NCBI GenBank assembly: GCA_016188575.1
Contig: JACPHN010000014.1
Coordinates: 10,325 to 53,347 of the forward strand
DNA from: Candidatus Schekmanbacteria bacterium
Lineage (GTDB): Bacteria > CSSED10-310 > JACPHN01
DNA length: 43,023 nt
Direction of reading: 5' to 3'
The notes beneath the pieces were generated by a model. The model searched no databases. It was not told the origin of the DNA and saw only the letters and a list, made by a program, of their open reading frames with translations. The position numbers were made by a program, and so were the translations under genes. Of this stretch, positions 24,957-41,761 are shown in pieces. Positions within the stretch are counted from its first letter, which is position 1; each line of letters opens with the position of its first letter.

Positions 24957-25193
24957 GGCAGTGCTCCGGAGCGGCGGTCACATCACTGCGCCCAGTGTTG
25001 CAAAAATCACGCCAGCAGACGCCGCGCATCCGGCCCGGCACACCCCGAGAAAATGGCGGTACCGTCGCGTTGGCGGCAACCAGGGTGAGGATAATAAAGC
25101 CGGCGGGCGAGACCAGAAGGACACATTGTGGAGCGCGCATTACACCACGAGCGATCACATGCGCATTCAGCCTGCCCCGTTGGAGCCAGTCGC

Positions 25194-25237
25194 TTGACGG
25201 TCGCTTGCGAGAATTCTATATTGGTCATATTGACCAA
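25194..25237 (+). promoter_or_regulatory. Promoter and operator of the phd/vapC pair
   Basis: TTGACG (25194-25199), a 17-base spacer and TATATT (25217-25222) form a good sigma-70-type promoter. It overlaps a perfect palindrome, TTGGTCA TAT TGACCAA (25221-25237), placed over the -10 and start region. Such palindromes are where Phd-type antitoxins repress their own operon; the role here is inferred from position. Confidence 0.8.
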
Positions 25238-25252
25238 TTTTGGAGCGGAACC

Positions 25253-25534
25253 ATGAGCGAAGCAGTGTCGGTTGCCGCCGCGAAAGCCCGGCTCGCGGAG
25301 TGCATAAGAAGAGCGGAGGAGGGAGATCGCGTCGTTATCACTCGCCACGGTAAAGTTGTCGCCGCCCTCGTCTCTGCGGCAGACCTTGCCGAGCTGAGGC
25401 GCCTGCGGGTCCGGTCGGATCGCGGTAGCTTGCTGGAGCTCGTAGGCCTCGATGCAGAGGATGCCTTTGCCGAGATCGCTCGCGAGTTGATATCGGAGCG
25501 TGGCGAGCCGCGCGCGGTGCCGGACTTCGCATAG
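25253..25534 (+). CDS. Phd-family antitoxin
   Basis: A 93-residue antitoxin of the Phd/YefM type. The N-terminal DNA-binding half reads VSVAAAKARLAECIRRAEEG, then DRVVITRHGKVVAALVS, the usual strand pair. The C-terminal half is variable and would contact the toxin (LELVGLDAEDAFAEIARELI). The ATG follows GGAGCGG. It lies just after a palindromic operator, consistent with autorepression. The downstream PIN toxin starts 3 bases after its stop, so the two form one transcript. This pair is unrelated in sequence detail to the one at 1202-1911. Confidence 0.88.
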   Translation: MSEAVSVAAAKARLAECIRRAEEGDRVVITRHGKVVAALVSAADLAELRRLRVRSDRGSLLELVGLDAEDAFAEIARELISERGEPRAVPDFA

Positions 25535-25537
25535 CGC

Positions 25538-25960
25538 ATGGCCTACCTTTTTGATACGGATGCAATCTCCGAGCTTTGGAGGCCGCGACCGTCGCCGCCC
25601 TACTTGGAGTGGGTGGCGACTGTTCACCGCGAGGAGCAGTTTATCAGTGCCGTGTCTGTTGGCGAGCTTTACAAGGGAGCGTTCAAGTCGCCAGCCAAGG
25701 ATAAGTATCTATCAATCATCGAAGCTCACACGCTTCCGTTGTTTACAGTTCTGCCATACGATACAAAAGTCGCCAGGGTCTATGGCGAGATTCGGGCGAT
25801 GATGGAGATAGAAGGCAAAGTTGTCGCTGATCCAGACCTGCAAATAGGAGCGACAGCGCTTTGCTTCGGCCTGGCTCTCGTGACGGGCAATATCAAGCAC
25901 TTCCAGAAGATCCCTGGCCTGATGTTGGAGCCGATTTCGCGCACCGGTCCAACCCGCTGA
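25538..25960 (+). CDS. vapC: VapC-like PIN-domain toxin
   Basis: A 140-residue PIN ribonuclease, toxin of the pair. Catalytic acidic positions are visible: Asp6 in LFDTDAISEL, Glu43 in VGELYKG, and Asp98/Asp100 in VADPDLQIGATAL; TGNIKHF closes the active site. The length is normal. Its last 68 bases overlap the end of the convergent parA gene, so the two convergent transcripts share sequence and there is no room for a terminator between them. The toxin-antitoxin pair looks inserted at the very end of the gas vesicle operon. Confidence 0.9.
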   Translation: MAYLFDTDAISELWRPRPSPPYLEWVATVHREEQFISAVSVGELYKGAFKSPAKDKYLSIIEAHTLPLFTVLPYDTKVARVYGEIRAMMEIEGKVVADPDLQIGATALCFGLALVTGNIKHFQKIPGLMLEPISRTGPTR

Positions 25961-26738
25961 CACGCGCCCGAGCCTCGCTCGCCAAGGCGGCGTAAGCGGC
26001 ACCCGCCGGGGTTGGACGCGCCGCGGCGGCGAGGATTTCTCCGGCCTGGCTCGCCTTCGCAAGGCTCGTGGAACGGGGGATGACCGTGTCAAAAACCCGC
26101 TCGCCGTACCGCTCCCGCAGCGACAGGAGTGATTGCCTGCTCATGTCGGTGCGCGCGTCGTATTGGGTGGGAAGCAGCCCCAAGAGCTGTAGCGGCTTGT
26201 TGAGGCGCTTGCGGACCTGCTCGGCGAACTTCAGCGTCCGCTCGATTTCCGCCATCGCCAGGAACTCGGTCTGCACGGGCACCAGATACCACTGACTGGC
26301 GACCAGGGCGTTCACCGCGAAGATTCCCAGGTCGGGAGGGACGTCGACAATCACCCAGTCGTACGGCAGCCCGTTACCCCGGCTTGCCGCGCGCTCCTCT
26401 TCGATGACGTCGCGGAGAATCGACTCGCGGGCGAGCTGTCGCTCCAGCCCCTCGCGCCTGTCCATGAGCGACGGATCCCCCGGAAGCAGGGCGAAGCGCT
26501 CCCGGTTCGGTAGCGAAACCACCCCTTGCGCGAGCCCTGCCCCCGGTTGCTCGAGTAGCTCGCCAAGCGCCAGACGCGGCGCCGCTGTCGATCCCAGGGC
26601 CTTGCTGGCGCTGCACTGGGGATCGGCGTCGACGAGCAGCACCGCCTGCTCACCGGCGAGCGCTCCCGCGAGCTGCACGGCGGTAGTCGTCTTACCCACG
26701 CCTCCTTTGCTCGACAGTATCGTCACGATGTGCGTCAC
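25893..26738 (-). CDS. ParA-family ATPase, last gene of the gas vesicle operon
   Basis: A 281-residue cargo-positioning ATPase. The deviant Walker A SSKGGVGKTTT (9-19) has the signature Lys11, LLVDADPQCSASKAL follows, and VIVDVPPDLG is the Walker B region. ParA proteins dimerise on ATP, bind nucleoid DNA and move plasmids, chromosomes or protein assemblies. It starts 4 bases after the stop of the MinD-like gene. The final ~20 residues (SGLDRCAKSAPTSG on) have a different, low-complexity character and are encoded antisense to the end of vapC, so the original C-terminus was probably replaced when the toxin pair arrived. No ParB gene or parS-like repeat is seen. Confidence 0.88.
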   Translation of the reverse strand: MTHIVTILSSKGGVGKTTTAVQLAGALAGEQAVLLVDADPQCSASKALGSTAAPRLALGELLEQPGAGLAQGVVSLPNRERFALLPGDPSLMDRREGLERQLARESILRDVIEEERAASRGNGLPYDWVIVDVPPDLGIFAVNALVASQWYLVPVQTEFLAMAEIERTLKFAEQVRKRLNKPLQLLGLLPTQYDARTDMSRQSLLSLRERYGERVFDTVIPRSTSLAKASQAGEILAAAARPTPAGAAYAALASEARARVSGLDRCAKSAPTSGQGSSGSA

Positions 26739-26742
26739 CTGG

Positions 26743-27564
26743 TCACTTCCTCCTTTTCACGCCGCCGCCGGCCGTCTCGAGCATGGAAGCCGCATAACTG
26801 CGCCGGCCGTTCCCCACGGACTCCTGGAAGATCGAGCGCAGCAACTGCTCGCTGGCCGTCGCCAGCGCCTTCGCCGCCGGGATCTCTCCGGCGAGGTCGT
26901 ACAGCAGCGTCGCCTCGCGAATCGCCACGGTGACGTTGGGATCGCGGGGCACCGAGCCCGCCCAGCGCGGCTTCATGAACAGAAACCGGTCGCAGACCTG
27001 GGTGAACTGGGCGAACACCCCCGCGGCAGAGGCCGGGCTGTCGGCCATGTTGACCAGCACCCACGGCAGGGTTGCCGGCGCCCGCCCCTGATGCACCTTG
27101 ATAAAGGCGTAGCAGTCGGCGATGGCCGTGCGGTCGGTCGTGGTAACTGCGAGGACGTGATCCGCCGGCGCCGCCAGCTCCAGCACTGCGGGACCGATGC
27201 CGGCGCCCAGATCGAGCACCAGGAGGTCGAACAGGTGCTCCATCCGCCCGATCTCGGATAGCAGCAACCCCAGCTTGTCGTTGTCGACCGTCGCCAGCTC
27301 GAGCACTCCCGATGGGGCCGGCAACACCCGCAGGCCGCTCGGCAGCGTCGCCATGACCTGCCAGAGCCGCTTGTCGCCGCTCAGCACGTCGCTGATGTCA
27401 CCGCGCGCCGGCAGCTTCAACAGGATCCGGACGTTGCCGAGCCCGAGGTCGGCGTCCAACAGGCAGGTGCGAATCTTCTTGCGCGCCGCGTGCTCCGCCA
27501 AGTGCACGGCGACGAGCGTCTTGCCGACGCCTCCCTTTCCTCCAGCCACTGCTATCGACAGCAT
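26743..27564 (-). CDS. MinD/FlhG-like ATPase in the gas vesicle operon
   Basis: A 273-residue ParA/MinD superfamily member closest in feel to FlhG/YlxH: GGKGGVGKT (8-16), then CLLDADLGLGNVRILL and LLVLDLGAGIG. FlhG-type proteins set flagellar number and place; MinD places division. It lacks an obvious C-terminal amphipathic membrane helix of the MinD kind and ends in a basic GGGVKRRK. The start ATG lies in a tight run, 21 bases after the preceding gene. It is the second of three distinct ATPases of this superfamily in one operon. I infer a role in distributing or limiting gas vesicle clusters. Confidence 0.85.
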   Translation of the reverse strand: MLSIAVAGGKGGVGKTLVAVHLAEHAARKKIRTCLLDADLGLGNVRILLKLPARGDISDVLSGDKRLWQVMATLPSGLRVLPAPSGVLELATVDNDKLGLLLSEIGRMEHLFDLLVLDLGAGIGPAVLELAAPADHVLAVTTTDRTAIADCYAFIKVHQGRAPATLPWVLVNMADSPASAAGVFAQFTQVCDRFLFMKPRWAGSVPRDPNVTVAIREATLLYDLAGEIPAAKALATASEQLLRSIFQESVGNGRRSYAASMLETAGGGVKRRK

Positions 27565-27585
27565 CCTCGCGTCCCGGTTGGTGGT

Positions 27586-28659
27586 CTAGCCCCAGAGGGC
27601 CTCGTCCTCCGCCGCGCTCACGGCGGGGCTGGAACGAGTCTCTGCTACGGGTGGCGGGGTGCGGGCCACCATCGGCGGCTCTGCTTGCGGGGGCATCTCG
27701 ATCCGGCGTGACGCGCGGCCGAGCATTCTGTCGACGAGTGGTTGCAAGCGTGCCAGGTCCTCCGCGATGTGCGGTGGCAGATCCACGGCGCGCCTCCGCT
27801 CCCCATCTCCCCCGAGCTCGCCCGGCAGTGCAGGGTCCTCGGCCAGGAGCGTCGCGTTCTCCTCGTGCTCCTGTGGTTGCCACGGCGGGCACCGGAGCAC
27901 GACCTCCTCCGCGAGCTGCCGATACGCCGCCGCGCCGGCACCCCGGGGGTCGTGCGCCAGCACCGTGCTGCGAAAGGAAGGCGCCTCGGCGACGCGCGTG
28001 TTGATCGTCACCTTCGCGTCGAATACCCAGGGGCCGAACAGGCTCGTGACTTCCCGCGCCGTTTGACTCGACAGGTTGGTGCGCCGGTCGAACATCGTCA
28101 GGAGCACGCCCGTAAGCACGACGGGGTGGCGAAGGCGCTGGGTCATGTTGAGCATCAGCTTGGCCAACTGATCAACACCCTCCCACGAATAGTACTGCGC
28201 CTGGATCGGCAAGAGCCACTCGTCGGCGAGCGACAGCCCATTCATCGTCAGCAGCCCGAGGGACGGCGGTGTATCGATGAGCACGAAGTCGTACGATGTC
28301 GCCGCCAGGCCGGGCAGCGTGTTGTCTCTGAGCACCGTCTCCCGGGCGATCATCTGCTCGAGGAGCTGCTCGCTCCGCGTCAGGTTGATGTGCCCGGGTA
28401 CGAGATCGACGCCCTTGGTGCGCGTGGGCAGAATCACGTCCCGGACGTCGAGCGGATCGTCCTTCAGAAGTGCGGTCACCGAGTATGGCGTCGAGCGCTT
28501 GTCGACGCCGAGCGTCACCGTGGTGCCGGCCTGCGGATCGAGGTCGAATACCAGAACCTCGTGGCCGCGCTCGGCCAGGGCGGCGGCCAGGTTCACCACC
28601 GTCGTGGTCTTGCCGACGCCCCCCTTCTGGGCGCAAACGACCAGGATACGTCTTTTCAT
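27586..28659 (-). CDS. ParA-family ATPase with proline-rich tail
   Basis: A 357-residue ParA. Walker A is AQKGGVGKTTT (10-20), followed by VLVFDLDPQAGTTVTLGV and VLIDTPPSLGLLTMN, close to chromosome- and plasmid-type ParA. After the ATPase core (about 265 residues) comes an extension with PPHIAEDLARLQPLVDRML and a Pro/Ala-rich tail, which could bind a partner. I choose the ATG at 28659, with GGAG 9 bases upstream inside the end of the histidine-kinase-like gene; only 4 bases separate the genes. A longer reading would add an Arg-rich leader without family match. Confidence 0.9.
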   Translation of the reverse strand: MKRRILVVCAQKGGVGKTTTVVNLAAALAERGHEVLVFDLDPQAGTTVTLGVDKRSTPYSVTALLKDDPLDVRDVILPTRTKGVDLVPGHINLTRSEQLLEQMIARETVLRDNTLPGLAATSYDFVLIDTPPSLGLLTMNGLSLADEWLLPIQAQYYSWEGVDQLAKLMLNMTQRLRHPVVLTGVLLTMFDRRTNLSSQTAREVTSLFGPWVFDAKVTINTRVAEAPSFRSTVLAHDPRGAGAAAYRQLAEEVVLRCPPWQPQEHEENATLLAEDPALPGELGGDGERRRAVDLPPHIAEDLARLQPLVDRMLGRASRRIEMPPQAEPPMVARTPPPVAETRSSPAVSAAEDEALWG

Positions 28660-28663
28660 CGAT

Positions 28664-29365
28664 TCACTCCGATATCTCCGCCGCGGGCAGTCGCATTGTC
28701 GCCAGGCCACCGCCGCCGTTTCCGTTACCAAGAATCAGGCAGCCACCCAGTGTCGTTGCCACCATTTCCGCGAGGAACAGCCCGAGCCCTGGGTGGGGAT
28801 CTCCCTTGCTCGAAACAAACGCCAGAGCCGCTTTCCCGGCGCGCTGCGGGGAAAAGCCGGGACCGCTGTCGGCAACGCGAAGCGACACCCACGCGCCCGC
28901 CTCCGGGGCGACCGCGACGTGAACGGTTCCCCCCTGGCCCGCGGCGTCACCCGCGTTGAGGAGGAGCGCCGACACCGCCTCCTCGAGCGGGCCGAGCGGG
29001 CCGTGCACACAGGGCGTCTCCGGATGCGCCTCGATCGTCAGCGTAATGCCTCGGCGGCGCCACTCGCGATCCAGAGCCCGGATGAGGTCGCCCACGAGCC
29101 AGGCGAGCGAAACCGGCTCGCGCGGCTCAAGCAGGCGCCGGCCCATTTCGTCAGCGCGCACCGCGGCGTTGATCGTGCGGATCAGGTCCGCCAGACGCGC
29201 GGTGGCCTGGGCCGCGGGTGCCTCCGCACCGCTTGCGGTGAGCTCGCCCAGATCCTCGCGCAAGTCCTCCACGAGCGCGGACAGGCGGTGCGCCAGCGCT
29301 CCCATACCCCTGGCCTGGCCCCGCAAAAAAGCCGCCCGCTCCTGTTCCTCGACCTGCGCCAACAT
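28664..29365 (-). CDS. Stand-alone histidine-kinase-type ATPase
   Basis: A 233-residue protein with the GHKL ATP-binding fold of sensor kinases. The N box is EAVSALLLNAGDAA (Asn137), G1 is DSGPGFS (166-172) and G2 is SSKGDPHPGLGLFLAEMV. The first 100 residues are helical. A histidine at 26 (GALAHRLSALVEDL) sits where a phospho-acceptor might be, but the H-box is not canonical. There is no membrane segment, sensor domain or receiver. Its ATG overlaps the stop of gvpJ as TAATG, so the genes are translationally coupled. It may phosphorylate a remote regulator or act as a plain ATPase; either is inference. Confidence 0.82.
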   Translation of the reverse strand: MLAQVEEQERAAFLRGQARGMGALAHRLSALVEDLREDLGELTASGAEAPAAQATARLADLIRTINAAVRADEMGRRLLEPREPVSLAWLVGDLIRALDREWRRRGITLTIEAHPETPCVHGPLGPLEEAVSALLLNAGDAAGQGGTVHVAVAPEAGAWVSLRVADSGPGFSPQRAGKAALAFVSSKGDPHPGLGLFLAEMVATTLGGCLILGNGNGGGGLATMRLPAAEISE

Positions 29366-29739
29366 TATCTATACCGCTCTTCGAGAGCCCCAAGTCGGCT
29401 TTTCAACGTGTCCAGCTCCGCAGCAACGGGGCTCCGCGGCGCCTCCGCTACCTGCCCCTCGAGAAGCGCCAACCTCGCCGCGATCGACTCGAGCTCCTCG
29501 TGCGGCGGCAATGAATGCGCCCGCGACGAAAGCTCGGGGTTATGGGTCCACCAATCTAGGCCCATCTCCTTGGCCTTGTCAACCGACGCGATCATCAACC
29601 GCAGTTGGATGGTCAGCAGCTCGATATCGACGAGCTTGATCTTGATGTCTCCGGCGATGATGATGCCCTTGTCCAGCACCCGCTCCAGCACGTCGGCCAG
29701 CGTGACCGAGTGCGTCGATTTCATGATTTCCCTTGCCAT
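29365..29739 (-). CDS. gvpJ: Gas vesicle protein GvpJ (A family)
   Basis: A 124-residue minor gas vesicle structural protein. Residues 6-62 are the GvpA-family fold: SVTLADVLERVLDKGIIIAG, DIKIKLVDIELLTIQLRLM, then DKAKEMGLDWW, a form typical of GvpJ/GvpM. Unlike the major shell protein it has a C-terminal extension of about 60 residues, mostly predicted coiled coil (ELESIAARLALLEGQ). In known clusters such proteins help nucleate the conical tips. The start could also be the ATG five codons in. It lies 26 bases after gvpK. Confidence 0.9.
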   Translation of the reverse strand: MAREIMKSTHSVTLADVLERVLDKGIIIAGDIKIKLVDIELLTIQLRLMIASVDKAKEMGLDWWTHNPELSSRAHSLPPHEELESIAARLALLEGQVAEAPRSPVAAELDTLKSRLGALEERYR

Positions 29740-29765: not shown

Positions 29766-30074
29766 CTATCGATCGAAAAGCTTCCCGAGCGGACCCAGGT
29801 CGAGATTGAGGTCGTCGTCCGTCAGCCCGAAGTGCTCCTTGAGACGATCCATCTCATCGCGCAGCCCCGCGAACGTTTGTCCCATCCGTTCGATCTGCTC
29901 GTCAGTCACGGTTCCCGCCTCCACGCGCCGCACTGCCTGCCGCTCGAGGAGCTCGCGAATGAGCTCAACGAGCGTGAGCACCAGTTGCCCGAGCCCCTTG
30001 CGGACGTTGTCGGGGTCCAGCGCCAGGCGCGAGACCGGTCCCTCGTCGCGCTGCTCCTCAGGTGCCGCTGCCAT
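29766..30074 (-). CDS. gvpK: Gas vesicle protein GvpK
   Basis: A 102-residue accessory protein needed for vesicle formation in characterised systems. It matches GvpK throughout: LALDPDNVRKGLGQLVLTLV, ELIRELLERQAVRRVEAG, then IERMGQTFAGLRDEMDRL and the ending LNLDLGPLGKLFD. The ATG at 30074 begins just before the conserved part and overlaps the upstream gene by 17 bases; a longer reading adds an Arg/Ser leader foreign to the family. Cytoplasmic, no membrane segment. Confidence 0.95.
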   Translation of the reverse strand: MAAAPEEQRDEGPVSRLALDPDNVRKGLGQLVLTLVELIRELLERQAVRRVEAGTVTDEQIERMGQTFAGLRDEMDRLKEHFGLTDDDLNLDLGPLGKLFDR

Positions 30075-30312
30075 CTCGCTCGCGTTTCTTGGCCGGTGGC
30101 GCCGCCCCGAGCTTGCCGCGCGCGGTGTCCCACGAGCAGGCCACGAGCTGCAGGCCGATATACAGGAGCTCAACGTCAGCCACCTTGATGGCAATGCTGC
30201 CGGACACCACGACTCCCGTCTCGAGCAGCCGATCGAGCGCGTCGCACAGGGACGCTCCCTCGGGTGCGACGACCGGCACGGTCACCGCGATCCTCTCAAT
30301 GTCGTCATTCAT
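30058..30312 (-). CDS. Small GvpA-domain protein (GvpS-like)
   Basis: An 84-residue member of the GvpA superfamily. The core reads ASLCDALDRLLETGVVVSGS, then IAIKVADVELLYIGLQLVA, which aligns with the A domain. The N-terminal part (MNDDIERIAVTVPVVAPEG) and the basic end (PPAKKRERDGSG) differ from GvpA and GvpJ. It fits the minor A-like proteins called GvpS in some clusters; I leave the symbol blank because naming varies. The ATG shares bases with the stop of the ATPase gene (ATGA) and the end overlaps gvpK, so three genes are translationally linked. Confidence 0.85.
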   Translation of the reverse strand: MNDDIERIAVTVPVVAPEGASLCDALDRLLETGVVVSGSIAIKVADVELLYIGLQLVACSWDTARGKLGAAPPAKKRERDGSGT

Positions 30313-32345
30313 TGCGTTATCTCTCTCGCGAGAATAATTTCTCCGATCCTGGTGAGCGCATCCACGCCGACGGGAGGTTCCAGGCACTCCTCCACGCCGT
30401 GCCAGACGGCCCCGGCGGGCAGCACCGACTGATATGCCTTGCGAAAAGCCGCGGATCGCGACACCGCCGCCGCGCACAAGTCACAGCCGGGTTCCGCGGA
30501 CGCGCGATAGTGGTTGAGCACCCCTCCCCGAACCGCCAGACCCGCGGTGCGGAGGCGCGCGCACAGCCTCTCGGTCTCCGCGAACGAAAGCTGCGTGGGA
30601 ATGGCCACGGGAAGCACGACGCAGGCAGCCGGGTCGGTGAGCGTCTTTTGCAGCTCCCGGATACCACGCGACAGGCTCACGAGGAATTCCTTTACCTTGG
30701 GCACCCGGAACACCTGGCGGTACTTCAGAAAAAGCTCAAAGAATCCCCGAGACCAGTCCCGGATCAGCTCGGGGAGCTCGAGCAGGCGCAGGAAATGCCC
30801 CGTGGGCGCCGTGTCGACCACGATTCTGCGGTAGGTGTTGGCGCGTAGGTGATCGACGAGATCCGTGAGCGCCATGATTTCGTCGAGCCCCGGAGGGGAC
30901 AGGTCGATCAGATGCTCCATGGCGACGCGATCGACCGAGGCATCCAGACCGTCCGCGGAGAAGAGCGAGGTGAAGAACCCATGCACCTCATCAGCGTACA
31001 GTTTCCGGAACGTCTGGAAGCGCGCCGCGGCGTCGACCTCGACGGCGTCGAGCCCTGGGTATACTTCCGTCGGCTGCTCGCCTACCGGCAGCGCCAAGGC
31101 ATCGGAGATGGAGTGCGCCGGGTCGGTGGAAAACAGCAGCGTGCGCCCCTGCCCCGCGCGGCCGGCCGCGCCTCGGGGCAATACCAGCGCCAGCGCCGCG
31201 GCGATCGTGGTTTTGCCGACGCCGCCCTTGCCGCAGACGAGCACGAGCCGGGCCTCGTCCAGGGCGCGCGCGAGCAGCTTCGGAGGGGCATTACGCGGCC
31301 CCCCCACCTCACCTTCACCCGCTTCCGGGGGCAGGGAAGGAGGACGTTGTGGGGCACTGTCAGGCGCCTGTCCGCGGGCGTCACCGCTTAACACCGACGC
31401 CATGGCCGAGAGCTCGTGCAGCCCGCGCGGCTCCACCGCCTGTAGCGGCACGGTCAGCAATGGCAGCGGCCTGCCAACGAGCGCCGCTCGCAGCTCGACC
31501 GCCGCCTTTTCTGCCCAGACCAGGTCGCGCTGCTGGCGCTCGTGGCACCACGAACAGGCGGGCGTGCCCGGGATTACCCGGTTGAGGATAACCAGTGGAA
31601 CGAAGATGCCGATGCCCGCGAGACTGCACAGCAGACGGCGAGTTTCCCACAACGCCAGCGGGTCCGGCACCATCACGGGGAGAAACGCCACCTTGCGGTC
31701 GTCGCGAAACAGCTTCCTGATGGCGGCGAGCAGCTCCTCGAGCTCAGACAACAACGCATCGGCTTCATCGGCGACCCGGCGGCCGCGGAACATGCGGGCC
31801 ATTACGCGGTGCTTCTCCATAAGCGCGTCGAGAGCGTCCCGCCAGCGGTCCAACACATCGGGAAGCTCGAGCAGGCGAAGCGTGTGGCCAGTCGGTGCGG
31901 TGTCCACGATCAGTCGCGCGAGGTCACCACGTGCGCTGCGCTCGGCGATGGCCTGCAGCGCCGCGAGCTCATCGAGGCCGGGCATGCCGAGGTCGATGAA
32001 GCCGGCCAGATCCTCATCGTCCAAAAATGTGCCGCGCAACGCGATCTGGCGAATTCCTTCCCGATGGCGCGCGCGAAAGGCCGCGAACAGAGAGGCGCTA
32101 TCGAGCTCTTCGACGAGCAGGTTCGGTGGCAGCGCCGGTCCGGCGTGCGGCCCGGCCGCCAGCGCGTCGCTCACCGAGTGCGCGGGGTCGGTGGAGAGAA
32201 GCAGCACGCGCTTTTCCGGGTCTCGCCTCGCGAATAGCAGGGCAATGGCGGCCGCCACCGTGGTCTTGCCGACACCGCCCTTGCCGCCCACGAAAATCAG
32301 GGGCCGATCGATCTCCGGCAGCGGCAGCCGATCAATCCTGCTCAT
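30309..32345 (-). CDS. Tandem ArsA/Get3-like ATPase of the gas vesicle operon
   Basis: A 678-residue protein made of two ArsA-type ATPase halves. Each has the P loop GGKGGVGKTT or CGKGGVGKTT (about 20-29 and 371-380), a STDPAHS switch and a VDTAPTGH motif. Each also has a CxxC (PACSWCHERQ in the first, PGCDLCAA in the second), a place where Get3 binds zinc between subunits. ArsA proper uses other cysteines for arsenite, and no arsenic genes are near. I infer a chaperone or membrane-targeting ATPase for hydrophobic Gvp proteins. The linker (about 325-365) is Pro/Gly-rich and holds a dispersed DNA repeat. The ATG at 32345 lies inside the end of gvpG; an upstream TTG is less likely. Confidence 0.9.
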   Translation of the reverse strand: MSRIDRLPLPEIDRPLIFVGGKGGVGKTTVAAAIALLFARRDPEKRVLLLSTDPAHSVSDALAAGPHAGPALPPNLLVEELDSASLFAAFRARHREGIRQIALRGTFLDDEDLAGFIDLGMPGLDELAALQAIAERSARGDLARLIVDTAPTGHTLRLLELPDVLDRWRDALDALMEKHRVMARMFRGRRVADEADALLSELEELLAAIRKLFRDDRKVAFLPVMVPDPLALWETRRLLCSLAGIGIFVPLVILNRVIPGTPACSWCHERQQRDLVWAEKAAVELRAALVGRPLPLLTVPLQAVEPRGLHELSAMASVLSGDARGQAPDSAPQRPPSLPPEAGEGEVGGPRNAPPKLLARALDEARLVLVCGKGGVGKTTIAAALALVLPRGAAGRAGQGRTLLFSTDPAHSISDALALPVGEQPTEVYPGLDAVEVDAAARFQTFRKLYADEVHGFFTSLFSADGLDASVDRVAMEHLIDLSPPGLDEIMALTDLVDHLRANTYRRIVVDTAPTGHFLRLLELPELIRDWSRGFFELFLKYRQVFRVPKVKEFLVSLSRGIRELQKTLTDPAACVVLPVAIPTQLSFAETERLCARLRTAGLAVRGGVLNHYRASAEPGCDLCAAAVSRSAAFRKAYQSVLPAGAVWHGVEECLEPPVGVDALTRIGEIILAREITQ
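31301..31337 (+). repeat. Dispersed GC-rich repeat, copy B, in the ATPase linker
   Basis: Shares its first 14 bases and about 31 of 37 overall with the intergenic copy at 2076-2112. Read on the minus strand it encodes part of the linker, SLPPEAGEGEVGG, between the two ATPase halves. An intergenic-type palindrome has thus apparently been accepted in frame in a coding sequence. Confidence 0.5.
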
Positions 32346-32601
32346 CGAGCTGCTCGTCGGTCCCAATTCCGCCCGAGCCGTCGGCTTTCACCCGGTCCAG
32401 GCGGTCCAGCAGGTCGGCTTCGAGCGCGTCGAACTCGGATTCCGAGATGCGCCCCGTCTCGAGCTGCATGTAGAGCTCCTGGAGCTGCTCCACGAGCGAG
32501 TCCGCATCGTCTGCTTCGGCGCGCACGGCCTGGTGGATTTCACGAAAGACGAAGAGGAGGCCGCGGACGGGAAAGGTGAGCAGATCATCGACGAGTAGCA
32601 C
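32332..32601 (-). CDS. gvpG: Gas vesicle protein GvpG
   Basis: An 89-residue accessory protein. The conserved N-terminus LTFPVRGLLFVFREIHQAV is diagnostic for GvpG. It continues as helix (VEQLQELYMQLETGRISESE) with an acidic, probably flexible end. GvpG works with GvpF/L as an assembly factor in characterised systems. The ATG at 32601 follows the gvpF/L gene by 33 bases. Its last 14 bases overlap the start of the tandem ATPase gene. Confidence 0.93.
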   Translation of the reverse strand: MLLVDDLLTFPVRGLLFVFREIHQAVRAEADDADSLVEQLQELYMQLETGRISESEFDALEADLLDRLDRVKADGSGGIGTDEQLDEQD

Positions 32602-32634: not shown

Positions 32635-33408
32635 TCAGGATTTCCCGAGAGCGACGCGGACAAAATGAAACGGTGGAAACGGCCCTGAGTAGTCGAAGGC
32701 GTAGTTATCGTCGAAGAGCGCCGCCGCGGCGAAGACGGCCTGCTCGAACTCGGTCGCGCGCGCGCGCTCGACCAGGCAGGTCAGGTTCATGACTTGCTCC
32801 TCGCGTTTGACGGGTCCTTCGTGGATTTCGAGCGCGACGTTCTCGAGGATTGCCTCCACATTCGCGCGATGGCGCTCTCTCGCGTCATGCAGGAGCGATT
32901 CGAAGGTACGTCCCAGGGCAATGCGCTCGTCCCGGGACGATGGGCCCCACTTGTTCTGCAAGCGGTCCCGCAGCTCCGCGAGCTCCGGATTGCGAAACAC
33001 GAAAAATTCATAGATGTTGGGGACATCCCAGCTCACTTTCAGCGTGAGCTCGACTTTCCCGGCGAGGCGATCGAGCTCCTCGGCGATCGTCGCTTCGTTC
33101 GCGGCGAGCAGCGCCTGAAGATTCGACAGGCTGGGCGCGACAACGCCGAACGCCACGGGGAGAAAGGCCACGGACGACTGCATCAACGCTTGCAGGACCG
33201 CATGGTGTGCGGCGATATTGGCGCGCTGGGGGCGGACCTCGCGGCCGTGAAACGCGCTGGTGATGAAGGCGATCGCGCCGGCACGCACCACCCTCAGCTC
33301 GTCGCCGGCTTGCCCGTCCGCGGAGGCTACCGGCGTCAGGCCTCGCAGGTCGCACGTGGCCTCCGGCGCAGTTATCGCGTAGAGGTACCAGCCCGTCGGG
33401 TCAGCCAC
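32635..33408 (-). CDS. gvpF: Gas vesicle protein GvpF/GvpL
   Basis: A 257-residue accessory protein of the GvpL/F family. It opens with WYLYAIT, continues through IAAHHAVLQALMQSSVAFLP, VAFGVV, ELTLKVSWD, and ends with the family closing motif YSGPFPPFHFVRV. GvpF contacts GvpA in known systems and is thought to act early in assembly. The start is a GTG at 33408 (VADPTGWYLYAI) with AAAGGAG 7 bases before it; an upstream reading would add a leader with no family match. A second copy of this family survives as a fragment at 36416-36622. Confidence 0.94.
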   Translation of the reverse strand: MADPTGWYLYAITAPEATCDLRGLTPVASADGQAGDELRVVRAGAIAFITSAFHGREVRPQRANIAAHHAVLQALMQSSVAFLPVAFGVVAPSLSNLQALLAANEATIAEELDRLAGKVELTLKVSWDVPNIYEFFVFRNPELAELRDRLQNKWGPSSRDERIALGRTFESLLHDARERHRANVEAILENVALEIHEGPVKREEQVMNLTCLVERARATEFEQAVFAAAALFDDNYAFDYSGPFPPFHFVRVALGKS

Positions 33409-33451
33409 AGCAGTGCTCCTTTCTCCCGAATTGCCGTTGGCAGGCGTCGCG

Positions 33452-33802
33452 TCAGTATCGGATTCCAAAGCCCGGGGCCTCATCGCCGCCCGGCAGCGAT
33501 TCATCGCCCGCGGGCACCGCCGGCGGCGCGTCCCTGCTCAAGGCTGGCTTTTCGTCTTTCTTGCGCGCGGCTACGGCGTCGGCAACAGATGCGAGCAGCG
33601 GCTGGAGCTCCTCCTCGACCCCGGCCAGGTAGCTGTCCAGATCGACGAGACGAGCCTTGATCGCCCTGCGCTCCTGCTCACGCAAGCCTTTCTGTAGGGT
33701 CAACAAGGCCATGCGCAGGAAGACGCGATGCGGAGCCCCGGTCGCGGCTGTGGAGTCAGACATCGTGCGGATGTTTTTGAGTCCTCGTTTGGGTGCGCTC
33801 AT
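33452..33802 (-). CDS. Small helical protein of the gas vesicle operon
   Basis: I do not recognise this 116-residue protein. It has a basic N-terminus (MSAPKRGLKNIRTM), a helical core (HRVFLRMALLTLQKGLREQE, then LVDLDSYLAGVEEELQPLLA) and a Pro/Gly/Asp-rich tail. There is no signal peptide or long hydrophobic span. Its ATG shares bases with the gvpN stop (ATGA), so it is translated with GvpN. Position between gvpN and gvpF suggests an assembly or adaptor role; that is inference only. Confidence 0.8.
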   Translation of the reverse strand: MSAPKRGLKNIRTMSDSTAATGAPHRVFLRMALLTLQKGLREQERRAIKARLVDLDSYLAGVEEELQPLLASVADAVAARKKDEKPALSRDAPPAVPAGDESLPGGDEAPGFGIRY

Positions 33803-34842
33803 TCTTCTCCGGAATCCTCCTCATTATTGCGCCAGGCAGGCGCCGCGCCCGCGGGCATGTCCAGTGTGTCCAGGTCGCCTCCAGAGCCCACCGCGCTGAT
33901 TATTTCTTCGAGCTTCTTGCGCATCAGGGAGCGGCCGCCGCGGGTGACTTTGACGGTGTCGGTGCCCAGAAGCACATCGTCGAGGACGCACCGGAAAAAA
34001 GGATCGGTCGGATCGGGATCGGCACCGTGCCGTGCCAGGACCTTGCCGATGGCGATGCAAGCGCGGATGGTCGGCCGGTGGTTATGGACACCTACGCCGC
34101 GCAGCGCGCGGACGATTCTCACGATGACCTGCGCGGCGGCGCGATCGATACCACCGCGGCTCATGGTGATCTGCACTTCGGTGTCTTGGTCGAAGTGACC
34201 GAGGTTGATGGTGATCATGCGGTCCATGAGCGCGTCCTGCGCCTTGTGAACGCCGGCGTATTCCTCGGGATTGGACGTGAAGATGGCCCGGAACTGCGAG
34301 TGCACGTGCATGTACCCCTCGCCGCGGGTGCGCAAGTGGGGCATGTTCAGGATGCCCTCGGCCAGGACGCTGAGCAGGACGTTGTTCGTCTCCGGCCGAG
34401 ACCGGTTGAACTCGTCATAGACGACGGTGTACCCGCGATGGCACGCCATGGTGAGGCGATTGTCGACCCACAGCGTGCGCATCTCCTCTTCGGTCTTGAC
34501 GACCGAGTGGATGTAGTTGTCGACGAGGCTGCGGCGGCGAAACCCGCTGTTGTGGCCGATGAGGTCGGCGCTGGTGAATTGGTCGTCGCCATGGATGAGC
34601 GCCACGGGGCGGCCGAGAAGCGCCGCGGTGTGCAGCGCCAGAGTGGTTTTACCGGTACCGGCCATGCCCGCGAAGTGCACGGGGTAGCCGACCTCGAGGT
34701 ACGTCAGCGCCCGGCGGGCGATCTCGTCGACATAGGCGGTCTGCACGAAGGACTCGCTCGCCTGGGGCTTGACGGTGTCGTGCCCGGGCTGGACGCGTTG
34801 AATGGGCGCGGCCACGGTGGCCGTTGACTGCTCCTTCATCAT
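33799..34842 (-). CDS. gvpN: Gas vesicle AAA+ ATPase GvpN
   Basis: A 347-residue MoxR-type AAA+ ATPase. Walker A is GMAGTGKTT (59-67), Walker B is VVYDEFNRS (140-148), and LLSVLAEGILNMP, IFTSNPEEYAGVHK and ALMDRMITINL are characteristic of GvpN. GvpN is needed for vesicles to widen from bicones to full cylinders in known systems, probably by remodelling GvpA or GvpC. The C-terminal ~100 residues carry the helical lid and an acidic end. It sits 12 bases after the coiled-coil gene. Confidence 0.96.
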   Translation of the reverse strand: MMKEQSTATVAAPIQRVQPGHDTVKPQASESFVQTAYVDEIARRALTYLEVGYPVHFAGMAGTGKTTLALHTAALLGRPVALIHGDDQFTSADLIGHNSGFRRRSLVDNYIHSVVKTEEEMRTLWVDNRLTMACHRGYTVVYDEFNRSRPETNNVLLSVLAEGILNMPHLRTRGEGYMHVHSQFRAIFTSNPEEYAGVHKAQDALMDRMITINLGHFDQDTEVQITMSRGGIDRAAAQVIVRIVRALRGVGVHNHRPTIRACIAIGKVLARHGADPDPTDPFFRCVLDDVLLGTDTVKVTRGGRSLMRKKLEEIISAVGSGGDLDTLDMPAGAAPAWRNNEEDSGEE

Positions 34843-34854
34843 CTCTCCCCGCGG

Positions 34855-35787
34855 CTAGTCGGGCAACGACAGTCCCCGATTGGCGAGAATGCGCTGGATT
34901 TCCCGCACGGATCCCGGCCCGATTCCCGGGAGGGCGAGCAGCGCTTCCTGGGAGGTGCGCAGGAGCTCGTCGATGGTATTGATTCCTCCCTCCCGCAAGA
35001 GCACGCCCACCCGCTCCGAAAGGCCCAGCGCGCCGATGGCGGCAGCGCCAGCGGCCGGGGCCGCCTCGGCGACGGTGGCGGCTTCCTGGGGCGCGGCCGG
35101 CGCGGGAATCGGGGCGGCGGCCGGAGGAGCGGTCGCCTCCGCGGTGGCCCGCGGCACCACCGGAGGTGCGGCCGGCGCGGCTGATGCGCTCAGCCCATGA
35201 AAGACCCGAAAACCCTCTTCCACCTCGGCGCGAAAATCAGCGAGCGTGTGGCGAACATCTGCCCGGAGCGACGCCACGCGGGCAGTAAGCTGCCCGACGT
35301 GGGACAGAATCTCGTTCTTTTCCAGCCGGCATCGTTGACGGCGCGCGGTTTCGGAGTCGAGACGATTCTTGCGGCAGTTGTCGAACGCCTGAGCGAGCGT
35401 GTCGGCGCGCTCGCGCAGCGCGGTTTGACGAGAGCTCCGGTCGGCGTCGGCGCGACCGCGGCGCTGCTCCTCGTGCTGGCACAGATCATCCCGCAGCGCC
35501 GCGAACGCCTGGCGCATGGCGCGCGCGTGCGCGGCGTGCTCCAGGCTTCTCGCCTCCCGCGCCCTGGCCGCGGCGCCGCGCCGGTCGGTCTCGCCTTCCA
35601 TGCGGGATCGCCGGGCGCCCCCGACAACCGTATTGAACCGGTGCCTGAGGTCGCGAAGTTGCCCTTGCGCCTCGCTCAGCACGCGGCCGGTTTCTTGCCG
35701 GGTATGCGCCAGGTCTTCTGCTCTGTTGTCGTGGGCCTGGCGAATCCGCGCCGCCACGCTCTGCATTGAGGCCAAAAATTCCGCCAT
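34855..35787 (-). CDS. Coiled-coil protein with C-terminal helix-hairpin-helix
   Basis: A 310-residue protein in the position where gvpC often follows gvpA. Residues 1-195 are almost entirely charged helix rich in Arg, Glu and Ala (MAEFLASMQSVAARIRQAHD, later RQAFAALRDDLCQHEEQRR), with no membrane span. A Pro/Ala linker (about 200-250) leads to a helix-hairpin-helix at 258-308: INTIDELLRTSQEALLALPG, then IGPGSVREIQRIL. This resembles the RNA polymerase alpha C-terminal domain fold, which binds DNA or protein. No clear 33-residue GvpC repeat is visible. I infer an outer-surface protein or an adaptor to the ParA-type ATPases or to DNA. Confidence 0.8.
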   Translation of the reverse strand: MAEFLASMQSVAARIRQAHDNRAEDLAHTRQETGRVLSEAQGQLRDLRHRFNTVVGGARRSRMEGETDRRGAAARAREARSLEHAAHARAMRQAFAALRDDLCQHEEQRRGRADADRSSRQTALRERADTLAQAFDNCRKNRLDSETARRQRCRLEKNEILSHVGQLTARVASLRADVRHTLADFRAEVEEGFRVFHGLSASAAPAAPPVVPRATAEATAPPAAAPIPAPAAPQEAATVAEAAPAAGAAAIGALGLSERVGVLLREGGINTIDELLRTSQEALLALPGIGPGSVREIQRILANRGLSLPD

Positions 35788-35958: not shown

Positions 35959-36177
35959 TCATGCCGGCGCCGCTGCGGTGGCCGTGAGGCCGATGGCTTC
36001 GGCGTACTTCAGGTAGGTATCGACCGAGGCGATCACGACGCGGGCCTCGATCGAGAGGAGCTCGATACCGACCAGCGAGACCTTCACCCAGGCGTCGATG
36101 ACGATACCTTTGTCGAGGATCCGATCCACGACCTCGGCAAGGCTCGAGGAGTCCGTGGACTTGGTAACCTGTGCCAT
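35959..36177 (-). CDS. gvpA: Major gas vesicle shell protein GvpA
   Basis: A 72-residue protein that would polymerise into the vesicle wall. It has the canonical core [40 protein letters not shown], then [14 protein letters not shown], with no extra domains. The ATG at 36177 has GGAG 7 bases upstream. It is the first complete gene of a minus-strand operon running to 25893. The 238-base region upstream holds a candidate sigma-54 promoter, and the gap behind it holds a weak hairpin. Confidence 0.97.
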
Positions 36178-36415: not shown

Positions 36416-36622
36416 TCACGACTCGGCGCCATCCGCGTGGTCGGAAAACGCCTCGGATACGAACGTGAACGGCGGCCACGGTCCGGTGACCGTGAGCGCC
36501 ACCCCGTGGGCGCTTTCCGCCGCGGCCTGGTGGGTCATGGCCGCGCTGAACGCTTCCTGTCGATCTCTGCGGACGAGGCACGCCAAGTTGAGAAAAGGCT
36601 TGCCGGGCGTTTCACCCGGTAC
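36416..36622 (-). pseudogene. C-terminal fragment of a second GvpF/L
   Basis: About 68 residues that match the end of GvpF/L: FLNLACLVRRDRQEAFSAAM, then [16 protein letters not shown]. The whole N-terminal domain is missing. The frame is open upstream into an IS5-type transposase fragment, so a chimeric product is formally possible but has no plausible start of its own. It shows the gas vesicle cluster once extended further upstream and was cut by an insertion sequence. Confidence 0.8.
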
Positions 36623-36895
36623 AGCGCGGACAGGCAACGCGACCACCTCGATTTCGATCCCGAGGTCTTCCCGGACGTTCTCAACGAACCGGCCCCTGTA
36701 CGCCCCATCGCTCCAGGTCTTTTCCAGCGTGGTGTCCTTGACTTTGGCGGCCATCCGTGTCGGCAGGCCACCGTCGCGATCCTGGATGTCGGCTTGGTAC
36801 CCGTGGATCGCAATGAGCAGGCCCAGGGTGTCTACGACGATGTGGCGCTTTCGTCCTTTGGTGGTGTCCCATACTGACTCAACATGCCGCTGCAA
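36623..36895 (-). mobile_element. IS5-family transposase fragment
   Basis: Reads TTKGRKRHIVVDTLGLLIAI, then ADIQDRDGG and WSDGAYRGRFVENV. These are the central DDE-region motifs of IS5/IS427-type transposases (KGRKRHI, VDT, QDRDG, DGAY). Both ends of the transposase are absent and no terminal repeats are visible. It is joined in frame to the gvpF/L fragment. Confidence 0.8.
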
Positions 36896-37837: not shown

Positions 37838-40800
37838 TTCTTCGTAAACTCCTTCCAGCCAGGTGAATCGTGTTCATTGGTTCTGTCCTGTCTTGCCAAA
37901 TGACCCATTTCGTGAAGAATATTAGTGGCAATCTCACATGCCGACGGTACTTTGCTAAGAAAATCCTCGTCAATGGTTATGCGTCCCCATACGCCTGGCC
38001 TTGTACAGGCATTCGGGTTATGGCCAGCACACTGACCGGTAATAATAGTGGGCGGCGTCCCCTCGTTAAGCACGTCGTTGATGTTCTTCATAATCTGGTT
38101 AGGTTGCCCTTGAAAATAGTCTGTGCATGATTTACATGGACCGGTGTTACCAAGGAGCTCGGAAACAAGCTTAACTAGCCCTTTCCTGATTAGCTTTGGG
38201 TATCTTGCCGTAGGGTAAATCACATACGAGCCGAGCGGGTCCCGTTTCAGCAGCGGCGAGCTTTCCGCGTACTGATACCCGGCTGTGCCCATCGACGGCC
38301 TGGGGTCGGGTCCCGAAAACCTCCATGTCGACGGAAGATAGATGCGGGCGCGAAAGTCGTAAACCGGTACATCACCGCCAACCAACGCCTCCCGGCTCCC
38401 GAAGCCGAACCGATCCAGGACTGACGATCCGGCCGGGATGCCGCGCCGAAGCTGTCATACGCGTACGTTCGCACAATCGCGCCGGTGTCGGCGGTAACGG
38501 CTACCACGTCGTTGCGCTCATTTCGCGCGTATGCCAGCGTCGTCCCCCCGATCTCGCCGGAGAGCAGCTCGTCTATCCCTTCCGCATACGTGTAGCTCTC
38601 CGTAGCCCCGCCGCCATTGTCGACCCGGATGAGATTTCCTTGATCATAGAAGATCTGCTCGCGCTCCCCGGCCAGCAGGTCTTCCTTATCGGCGCGCCGG
38701 TCCGCGCCGTCGAAAGAAAACCGGAGATCGTTGAGAATTTCCCCGTCCGAGCTTCGCCGGCGGCGAATCCCCGTGTTTCGGCCGAGCGCGTCGTACGCCA
38801 GCGCGATCTCCTCGCCGTCCGTGACGTGTCGAATGAGCGACAACTGGCCGTTCGCGTCGTGCGCGTACGCGTACGCGTCGTCCGCCACCAGTCTTCCGGC
38901 CGCGTCGTATTCGTAGGTCCCGCTCAGGTGCGACGCGGTCCGCCGCCCCAGCGCGTCGTAGGCGTACCATTCGTCCACCAGCGGCCCGCCGTCCGGATGA
39001 TCCGCCCCCGTCAGCCGGCCGGCCGCGTCGTACGCATAGACGTGCTCTCCAAGGCCGTCGGTGATTCGCAGGACCTGTCCCTCGGCGTCGTAGGTATAGG
39101 TGTAGCTCAGCTCCGGCACGACCGACGGGTTGCGCGTCGTCATCGCGGTCAGCCGCCCGAGCTCGTCGTGGGCGTAGAGGCGAGTCGCCCCGCCGGCGTC
39201 CGCCGGTACAGATGCTCGGTTCCCTCGGGGCCCACCATCGTCTTGCGCCGCCCGGCCTTGTCGTACGTGTAGCGCGTCGTCAGCCCCGCCCACGTCTCCG
39301 ATGCCATCCGTCCCCCGGCGTCGTAGCTTCGCTCGATCACCCCCACGGCGTTGGCGATCGCCAGCGGCCGCCCACCCACGTCGTAGCTCCACGTCGTCTC
39401 CGACCCATCTGATGCGAGCTGCCGCGTGCGCTGGCCCGCCGCGTCATACTCGTCGCGCAGCCACTCGCCACCCGGGCGCCGTTGCTCGATCTGTCGTCCG
39501 GCGCGGTCATACACCCACGTCTCCCGGTTCCCGAGCGGATCGCTCCGCGCCACGACCCGCCCGCGCGCATCGACCTCGCTGCGCCAGACGTTGCCGAGAG
39601 CATCGACCACGGCGGTCGCCGCCGTCCCCGCGCCCTCGTAGCTTCGCGCCGTCACCGCGCCCGCCGCGTCGACCTCCCGCACCACCCGCCCAAGCGCGTC
39701 GTACCACGTATCGCGCCGCCGCCCGAGCGCGTCGATAACCGCCGTTACCTGCCCGTGGGCGTCCCGCGCGTAGCTCGTGACGTTCCCGAGCGGGTCCTCG
39801 TCCCAGGCGACGTTGCCGAGCCCGTCGTAGCCGGTCTCCCAACGCGCTCCCGCCGCGTCCGTCACCGCCGTAAGCAAGCCGCGCGCGTCGTATTCATAGA
39901 TCTCGTAGGCTCCGCCCGGCCGGTCGACGCGCGTCACATTGCCGCCCGCGTCGTAGGTGAAATCCGTGCGCGCGAGCAGCGGGTCGGTGATGCGCGTCAA
40001 GCGGTCGGCCGCGTCGTATTCGTAGCGGGTCACCGCTCCCGTCGCCAGCTCCTCGATCGCGATCGCGTTGCCGCGCGCGTCGAAAGTCGTCTCCGTGGCG
40101 CTGCCGTCCGGCCGCGTCACCGTCTCGGTCGACCCGTCCGCGGCGCGAGCGACCGTCGTCACGCGCCCCACCGCATCCTCGGTCGCGGTCACCCGCCCGC
40201 CGCCGTCGATCGTAAAGCGCGTTTCGCCGCCGAGCGCATCCGTTCGCGTCGCCACAACCGCCTCGGCGAGCAGCGCGGTTGCCGGCACCGCCCGCGTCCC
40301 TGAGCCCGCGGGCAGCTCGTCGATCAGCCCCACCGCGGCGGCTGGCACATACGTCCGCACCTCGCCATCCGGCAACACCCGTGCTCGCAGCCGGCCCCGT
40401 CCGTCGTAGGTGAACGTCGTCGCGGCGCCCGTGCCGTCGCGGCGCGACAACAGGCGGTGCACCTCGTCGTAGGCGAACAGCTCCGCGTTTCCCGCCGGGT
40501 CGACGACCGTCACGAGATCGCCGTGCGTGTCCACGACGAACCGCGTCACCCGGCCGCCTGGGTCCGTGTAGGTGCTCAGGCGACCCTCGGCGTCGTAGGC
40601 CAGAGCGCTGACCTGGCCCGCGGGATCCGTGATCTCGGTCAGCCGCCCCGCGGCGTCGTAGCGATACGCCGTGGCGTTGCCCACCGCATCGCGCCGCTCC
40701 GTCAAGCGCCCGGCCGCGTCGAAGCGCTCGCGCTCGCCGCCGGCAGCGACCCGCTCGTAGGTGCCGTCCGCCATTTGTCGCAGCCGCTCCGTGCCTCCCT

Positions 40801-41308
40801 CGCCCAGATACGCGCCCGTCCCGCGCGCCAGCCGCCACAGCGCGGAAGTCCCGCCATCGAGCATCGCCGTCACCACGGTGCCGTCGGGCAGCGCGAGCAC
40901 TCCCGTCGGCCGGCTCGGGCCGTCGATCGCGCGATAGCGGAGGTAGGGGCGCCCACCCAGGTCGAGCTCGTAGATTCGTCTGCGGTCCGCCACCGCTACC
41001 AGCAACCCGGCGTCGCTCGCGGCCAGCCCGCTGATCCCCGAGCGCACAAACCAGCGCTCGGCCGCGTCCATCCCGGGTACCAGGCGATGGATCGCACCGG
41101 CCGCGTGCACGTAGAGGCGCCCATCCGCCGCCACGGCGAGCTGGCCCGCGTCGCCGAGCGCGCGCGTCTCGACGCGCACCGGACCCGCCTCCCGCCACCC
41201 GCTTTGGCGAGTGCTCACCGACGACCGAGCTTCGTCCGGTATTCCGGACTGACACCCAGCCAGGAAGCAAGTTCTCGGCACCACCTCATGAGATCTCCAA
41301 TGCCCCAT
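37810..41308 (-). pseudogene. RHS-repeat toxin with metallopeptidase tip, two frameshifts
   Basis: A polymorphic RHS protein of about 1,166 codons. The core has many YD repeats (for example RYDAAGRLTEITDPAGQ) that would form a toxin-enclosing shell. It ends with the conserved boundary FGFGSREALVGGDVPVYDFR and SPLLKRDPLG. The ~130-residue tip carries ATNILHEMGHLAR, an HExxH zinc-peptidase motif (HEMGH, 37900-37914). The reading frame shifts near 39190-39205 and again near 38411-38428; protein similarity continues on both sides, so the breaks are single-base changes or sequencing errors. The 5' end is uncertain: LAGCQSG resembles a lipobox but no proper signal precedes it. Confidence 0.8.
38878..39176 (-). 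repeat. RHS core duplication, copy 1
   Basis: Nearly identical to 42725-43023 over 299 bases; I count three differences by eye. It encodes the last shared YD repeats, from DAYAYAHD's upstream neighbour back through SYTYTYDAEGQ. Identity stops abruptly on the tip side, where the two RHS genes diverge. Confidence 0.9.
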
Positions 41309-41419
41309 CCTTGCCGAGTCTACGCCTCCACGCGGAGCGTTTCCTCATGCATCATTCGCCACCATTGGGCGACACGCAGTACGCCTCACGTGGGCTTGCG
41401 GGCGCCGAACAGATAGTCC

Positions 41420-41761
41420 TCAGTCATAATCAGAAAACGCAGCAACTTCGGTAACTTTTCCATCTCGAAACTTTATGAATCGCACATAGTAGGACGAACC
41501 CGATGCGTCTGAGTAGTGATATACGACAGATGAATCGTCATATTCAATAGTTGATAATGGTTCACCGAGAATATCCAATACATGTTTCTGTGACATTCCG
41601 ATCTTTATAGACGTAAAGGCTCTCTCACTGTAGTTTTTACTATATAAAGTACCGAGTCCTGGATGTAGAAAGTAAACCCAAAACGCCATAAACAAAGACA
41701 CTAACAACCATATTATGATACGCAGAGTCAGCATGATCCAATGAACGTATCCCGCCTTCAT
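41420..41761 (-). CDS. Small membrane protein with BamE-like domain, candidate immunity
   Basis: A 113-residue protein with one strong N-terminal membrane helix (LRIIIWLLVSLFMAFWVYFL) followed by a domain that resembles the SmpA/BamE fold: FTSIKIGMSQKHVLDILGEP, then YYVRFIKFRDGKV. I take the ATG that overlaps the RHS stop as ATGA; an ATG six codons earlier is possible. The gene is AT-rich, like the adjacent tip. Its position directly behind the RHS tip suggests an immunity protein held in the inner membrane facing the periplasm; this is inference. Confidence 0.65.
   Translation of the reverse strand: MKAGYVHWIMLTLRIIIWLLVSLFMAFWVYFLHPGLGTLYSKNYSERAFTSIKIGMSQKHVLDILGEPLSTIEYDDSSVVYHYSDASGSSYYVRFIKFRDGKVTEVAAFSDYD

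Follow-up and report, generated by a model that had tools for sequence, protein, structure and literature searches.

How the hydrophobic protein GvpA stays soluble and enters the shell is an open question, both in gas-vesicle biology and in the use of gas vesicles as ultrasound reporters. GvpA is proteotoxic, and GvpF, followed by GvpG, have been proposed as its chaperones (Iburg et al., PMC11445434). The gvp operon described here lies in a window of 43,023 nucleotides (the whole stretch of DNA that was analysed) from a Candidatus Schekmanbacteria bacterium, and it includes a gene for an ArsA-like ATPase. Its genes are read from the same strand in the order gvpA, a coiled-coil helix-hairpin-helix protein, gvpN, a 116-residue protein, gvpF/L, gvpG, the ATPase, a GvpS/J-like protein, gvpK and gvpJ (Table 1). 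As had been predicted, the ATPase gene sits between gvpG and the A-domain genes; its start overlaps gvpG by 14 nt and its end overlaps the GvpS/J-like gene by 4 nt. Gene overlaps of this kind on either side are consistent with translational coupling.

Table 1. Features of the ATPase gene and of the surrounding gvp operon (positions refer to the window).
Feature	Position	Strand	Basis
Single-chain tandem Get3/ArsA-like ATPase, 678 aa	30309-32345	-	PF02374 twice, TIGR00345; AlphaFold model
N-half P-loop GGKGGVGKT, residues 20-28	32262-32288	-	sequence
N-half counterpart of the TRC40/Get3 insert, 51 aa, residues 163-213	31707-31859	-	alignment
N-half CxxC (CSWC), residues 264-267, start of helix 265-288	31545-31556	-	sequence, alignment, AlphaFold model
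C-half P-loop CGKGGVGKT, residues 371-379 (GKGGVGKT 372-379)	31209-31235	-	sequence
C-half counterpart of the TRC40/Get3 insert, 44 aa, residues 526-569, with many aromatic and aliphatic side chains	30639-30770	-	alignment
C-half CxxC (CDLC), residues 621-624, start of helix 622-641	30474-30485	-	sequence, alignment, AlphaFold model
gvpA, main wall protein, candidate client	35962-36177	-	PF00741
Coiled-coil protein between gvpA and gvpN, RNA-polymerase-alpha-CTD-like helix-hairpin-helix end	34855-35787	-	
gvpN, AAA+ ATPase	33799-34842	-	TIGR02640 above cut-off
116-aa protein between gvpN and gvpF, no Pfam or NCBIfam match	33452-33802	-	
gvpF/L	32635-33504	-	PF06386
gvpG, immediately upstream of the ATPase	32332-32601	-	PF05120
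GvpS/J-like A-domain protein, immediately downstream of the ATPase, candidate client	30058-30312	-	PF00741
gvpK	29766-30074	-	PF05121
gvpJ-like A-domain protein, candidate client	29365-29739	-	PF00741

The ATPase is a member of the TRC40/GET3/ArsA family, with scores above the curated cut-offs. Its open reading frame, which runs from 32345 to 30309 and encodes 678 residues counted from the ATG, matches the Pfam family ArsA_ATPase (PF02374) twice (E 5.6e-98; 328 bits against a curated cut-off of 24.3) and the NCBIfam model TIGR00345, GET3_arsA_TRC40, with 344 bits (cut-off 135). The P-loop and the STDPAHS switch, both of which had been read in each half, are intact in the translated sequence, the latter within the motifs LLLSTDPAHS and LLFSTDPAHS. 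DTAPTGH is likewise present twice, and the Get3 combination of a P-loop with signature lysine, STDPAHS and DTAPTGH is thus found in both halves. An AlphaFold2 model was obtained from 34 aligned sequences (mean pLDDT 84.6, pTM 0.85). Its single-domain structural matches, several of which carry bound transmembrane segments, are headed by closed-state TRC40/Get3, the top match being TRC40 of Methanothermobacter (M. thermautotrophicus), captured in its ADP-AlF4 state (3zq6_B; Z 31.2 over 276 residues, 2.5 Å). Superposition of the whole chain yielded Z 28.3 over 542 residues at 3.5 Å for closed ArsA (9nbw) and a poorer fit for algal ArsA1 (Z 19.4). Because the whole-chain model fits closed ArsA and the single domains match closed TRC40/Get3, the model supports an intramolecular pseudodimer of the two halves.

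Membership of the same family, the same two-domain layout and the fit of the whole-chain model to ArsA structures could mean that a true arsenite-pump ATPase has been placed in a gvp operon by chance, but we give this explanation hardly any credence. The protein contains nine cysteines, namely those at positions 240, 371, 575, 595 and 654 and the four of its two CxxC motifs, and comparison of this list with the alignment placed none of them at the positions of C113, C172 and C422 of E. coli ArsA. The arsenite-pump equivalog TIGR04291 scored 153 bits, below its cut-off of 650, and no ars gene was found among the open reading frames annotated around the ATPase gene. The ArsA proteins of E. coli and L. 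ferriphilum share the single-chain pseudodimer fold with the ATPase but differ from it by their short inserts, their arsenite cysteines, the lack of CxxC and their placement in a separate clade. The missing cysteines, the separate clade, the helical insert and the gvp operon agree with the original prediction that the protein is not an arsenite pump, and the corresponding label of the protein family is corrected here.

A CxxC in each half at the Get3 zinc position had also been foreseen, and this is what the alignment indicates for both CSWC and CDLC; in the model, a long helix begins at each site. CSWC aligns with the CxxC of the M. thermautotrophicus and M. jannaschii Get3 proteins, both of solved structure. 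The pairing is not a matter of chance, since both motifs are kept in 25 of 25 gvp-type proteins, whereas none of 35 ars-type ArsA halves has a CxxC. (In one of the 25, L153, the aligner displaces the motif, but CLTC is present and was counted.) The 61 tandem proteins compared comprise 38 with both motifs, 23 with neither and none with a single one, and three independent changes were traced; a sign test on these concerted changes gave p 0.25, three events being too few for significance. Because the two motifs are always retained or lost jointly, an intramolecular zinc site joining the halves is credible, and we refer to it as putative. Zinc is not essential across the whole gvp-linked family, as cyanobacterial gvp-linked tandem proteins lack both CxxC motifs and most Chlorobi single-domain proteins carry SxxC, a single one (L269) having CxxC. 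We also considered CxxC as a hallmark of gas vesicles; this was ruled out by its absence from the cyanobacterial gvp proteins and its presence in one group of non-gvp tandem homologues from myxobacteria.

Both halves, as judged from the alignment, carry a helical insert of near-Get3 length. The region was measured from the switch II helix to the next conserved strand and corresponds to the client-binding helices of Get3. Across all 25 gvp-type proteins it comprises 51-52 residues in the N halves and 44 in the C halves, compared with 37 and about 25 residues, respectively, in ars-type ArsA; it is 51 residues long in the Chlorobi gvp single-domain proteins and has a median length of 56 in an archaeal set. 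The hydrophobic fraction of the insert amounts to 0.48 (N) and 0.52 (C) in gvp-type proteins versus 0.41 and 0.36 in ars-type ArsA.

Scans of genome collections revealed 24 gvp-type tandem proteins besides that of the window, with hosts that include purple sulphur bacteria, a Labilithrix MAG and other deltaproteobacterial MAGs. The ATPase gene is adjoined by gvp genes in 24 of the 25 cases, following directly after gvpF/gvpG in 23 and after gvpF alone in one; the remaining gene (L157) is close to the end of its contig, where no gvp gene was within reach, and gvpK is found on another contig of its genome. Within one order, gvpK is present in 10 of 11 genomes with the ATPase gene and in 11 of 199 without it (Fisher 1e-10), and within one phylum in 6 of 6 versus 7 of 323 (Fisher 1e-9), both values being uncorrected for relatedness. 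The P-loops and ATPase sites are intact in both halves of nearly all gvp-type proteins. A scan of eight genomes of the window's own phylum found a full-length homologue in no other genome, and the viral contigs searched contained no relative. In the genome of the window, two more pairs of adjacent ArsA-like open reading frames (G000:C65, L212; G000:C38, L213) lie outside gvp genes. The myxobacterial tandem proteins (L191-L202 and L216-L238), common in one group of myxobacteria, are encoded away from any gvp gene within the stretches examined. Most of them lack the signature lysine in the second P-loop (GQGGVGKS and similar), and two sublineages have lost the CxxC pair, each time from both halves.

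Phylogeny against ArsA and Get3, put forward with the original prediction as a check, separated the halves of the ATPase from ars-type ArsA, all halves of which form one clade of their own (100/99). The gvp-type N and C halves fall into two clades (97/95 and 100/97), each including cyanobacterial and myxobacterial tandem proteins, the latter nested within the gvp clade. When more Chlorobi single-domain proteins were included, many of them gvp-linked, these were sister to the entire tandem clade (97/95). In Chlorobi gvp operons (L255-L269), the single-domain homologue, with SxxC or CxxC, adjoins GvpN, GvpJ and related genes. A single tandem ancestor shared with ArsA was rejected when N halves were paired with N halves (AU p 0.004); pairing of the C halves was borderline (p 0.064), and a loose grouping of the tandem halves as a whole was not rejected (p 0.19). 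The simplest reading of the trees is that a single-domain Get3-like gvp protein duplicated and fused independently of ArsA. The ATPase would then exemplify the conversion of a Get3 dimer into a single chain separately from ArsA, with the single-domain sister still extant in Chlorobi gvp operons.

The ATPase gene is absent from roughly half of the related gvp operons. Most of 16 such loci from the same groups read gvpF-gvpG-A-domain-gvpK with no intervening gene. A comparison of GvpS between operons with and without the ATPase gene gave no clear signature. In two close relatives, L239 and L215, which are 93% identical upstream and 88% identical downstream of the site, the ATPase gene has been cleanly deleted from L239 (7440-7720, versus 7950-9916 in L215), in an operon that is otherwise intact: only its first codons remain and the neighbouring gvp open reading frames were found. 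Because ATPase-less operons keep the gene order and one strain has a clean deletion, the comparison indicates that the ATPase gene is accessory and can be lost, unless the L239 strain has stopped making gas vesicles or its assembly is wrong.

We consider it on balance probable that the protein is an accessory factor dedicated to gas-vesicle assembly, with the architecture of a Get3 dimer folded from one chain. GvpA-type proteins are hydrophobic, and a chaperone role for them is likely. The best-supported reading is an ATP-driven holdase for A-domain proteins, which is plausible because the ATPase gene lies between gvpG and an A-domain gene, and GvpF and GvpG are proposed GvpA chaperones; its client binding, zinc and release are steps that we infer. 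GvpF/GvpG would pass the client on to the ATPase, in which the four cysteines of the two CxxC motifs may hold one structural zinc bridging the halves. On ATP binding the halves would close and bring the two helical inserts together into a hydrophobic groove able to take the amphipathic alpha1-beta segment of a GvpA-type protein, either GvpA itself or the small GvpS/J, whose gene adjoins that of the ATPase. Hydrolysis would then open the halves and release the client at the growing shell. The ATPase is a testable candidate for an ATP-driven factor in GvpA solubility and shell feeding. More tentatively, a zinc-locked single-chain Get3 may have evolved in gvp operons, separate in origin from ArsA, as an ATP-driven chaperone whose clients end up in a shell made solely of protein rather than in a membrane.

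The paired CxxC motifs also bear on a different proposal, in which they act mainly as a thiol switch, oxidation leading to zinc release and disulfides, and the protein is a redox-controlled, ATP-independent holdase that protects Gvp proteins under stress. An oxidation-regulated chaperone function tied to CxxC is described for Get3 (PMC10248533), and the motif is paired and conserved throughout the gvp-type clade. The intact ATPase sites of nearly all gvp-type proteins, however, argue for an ATP cycle, and the cyanobacterial gvp versions do without CxxC, which makes the redox proposal unlikely. The nearest domain structures, Get3/TRC40, several with bound transmembrane segments, would suit a factor that works like eukaryotic Get3 and targets a membrane protein, tail-anchored or of another type, that gas-vesicle cells need, and the tandem algal ArsA1 reportedly handles tail-anchored proteins. 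Such delivery is quite unlikely here: a hydropathy scan of the operon proteins revealed no clear transmembrane segment, the peak 19-residue value (1.99) lying within the ATPase itself, and no candidate for a membrane receptor was seen in the operon, nor were Get1/2 or Get4/5 partners seen. Of the targeting chaperone for hydrophobic Gvp proteins that had originally been envisaged, the chaperone part remains likely, whereas targeting to a membrane finds no support.

Downstream of gvpJ, the same strand encodes three consecutive ParA/MinD-like ATPases (27586-28731, 26743-27564 and 25893-26738) and an HATPase_c protein (28664-29365), together spanning 25893-29365. These genes, and the common P-loop superfamily, would fit a ParA/MinD-like ATPase that supplies energy for nucleating or positioning gas vesicles instead of holding a client. 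We regard this as improbable, since the helical inserts and the CxxC motifs are Get3 features, and no ParA/MinD genes were seen in the related gvp loci examined, so that these genes do not travel with the ATPase gene; as conserved partners of the ATPase they were ruled out on the same grounds. The ParA/MinD-like genes themselves could have a role in gas-vesicle positioning.

The group to which the ATPase belongs has been known since 2010. Castillo and Saier described two-domain ArsA homologues of about 640 residues in gvp operons (their Clusters 4 and 6), in which the arsenite cysteines are not conserved, and suggested an energised step in gas-vesicle biogenesis (PMC2963123). The ATPase matches these proteins in its two domains, its gvp linkage and the absence of arsenite cysteines. 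Their paper makes no mention of CxxC, Get3 or the origin of the half domains, and their Cluster 4 is mostly cyanobacterial, a group whose gvp proteins lacked CxxC in our comparison. As far as the literature searched shows, the findings that appear to be new are the zinc motif in paired form, an origin apart from that of ArsA with a sister of one domain, and the loss of the gene by deletion in a natural strain. Our literature search found no paper linking gas vesicles with Get3, and for gas vesicles and tail-anchored proteins the sole match has the term only in the title of a reference. Archaeal and eukaryotic Get3/TRC40, which provide the best single-domain structural matches, share the P-loop, the switches, the CxxC and the long helical insert; Get3 forms its homodimer from two separate chains, whereas the ATPase unites two domains in one chain. 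Chlamydomonas ArsA1 (5zme, 5zmf), the top PDB sequence match (E 4e-52), is also a single-chain tandem protein, but CxxC is absent from its aligned stretches. Get3d, a member of the same family, lacks CxxC and has a C-terminal alpha-crystallin domain (PMC10248533); the ATPase, in contrast, has CxxC, and the Pfam scan found no alpha-crystallin domain in it.

Further genes of the window and its genome were noted. On the minus strand at 36416-36895, a piece of a DDE transposase is fused in frame to a GvpL/F C-terminal end, probably reflecting the disruption of a gvp gene by an insertion element. A second, isolated GvpL/F gene of the same genome (G000:C31:6955-7722; L029) lies on a 12-kb contig on which no other gvp gene was found. 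A Phd/YefM antitoxin and PIN toxin pair adjoins the ParA genes on the opposite, plus strand (24995-25960), and RHS/YD-repeat proteins, apparently in two partly duplicated copies, occupy 38247-42990 on the minus strand.
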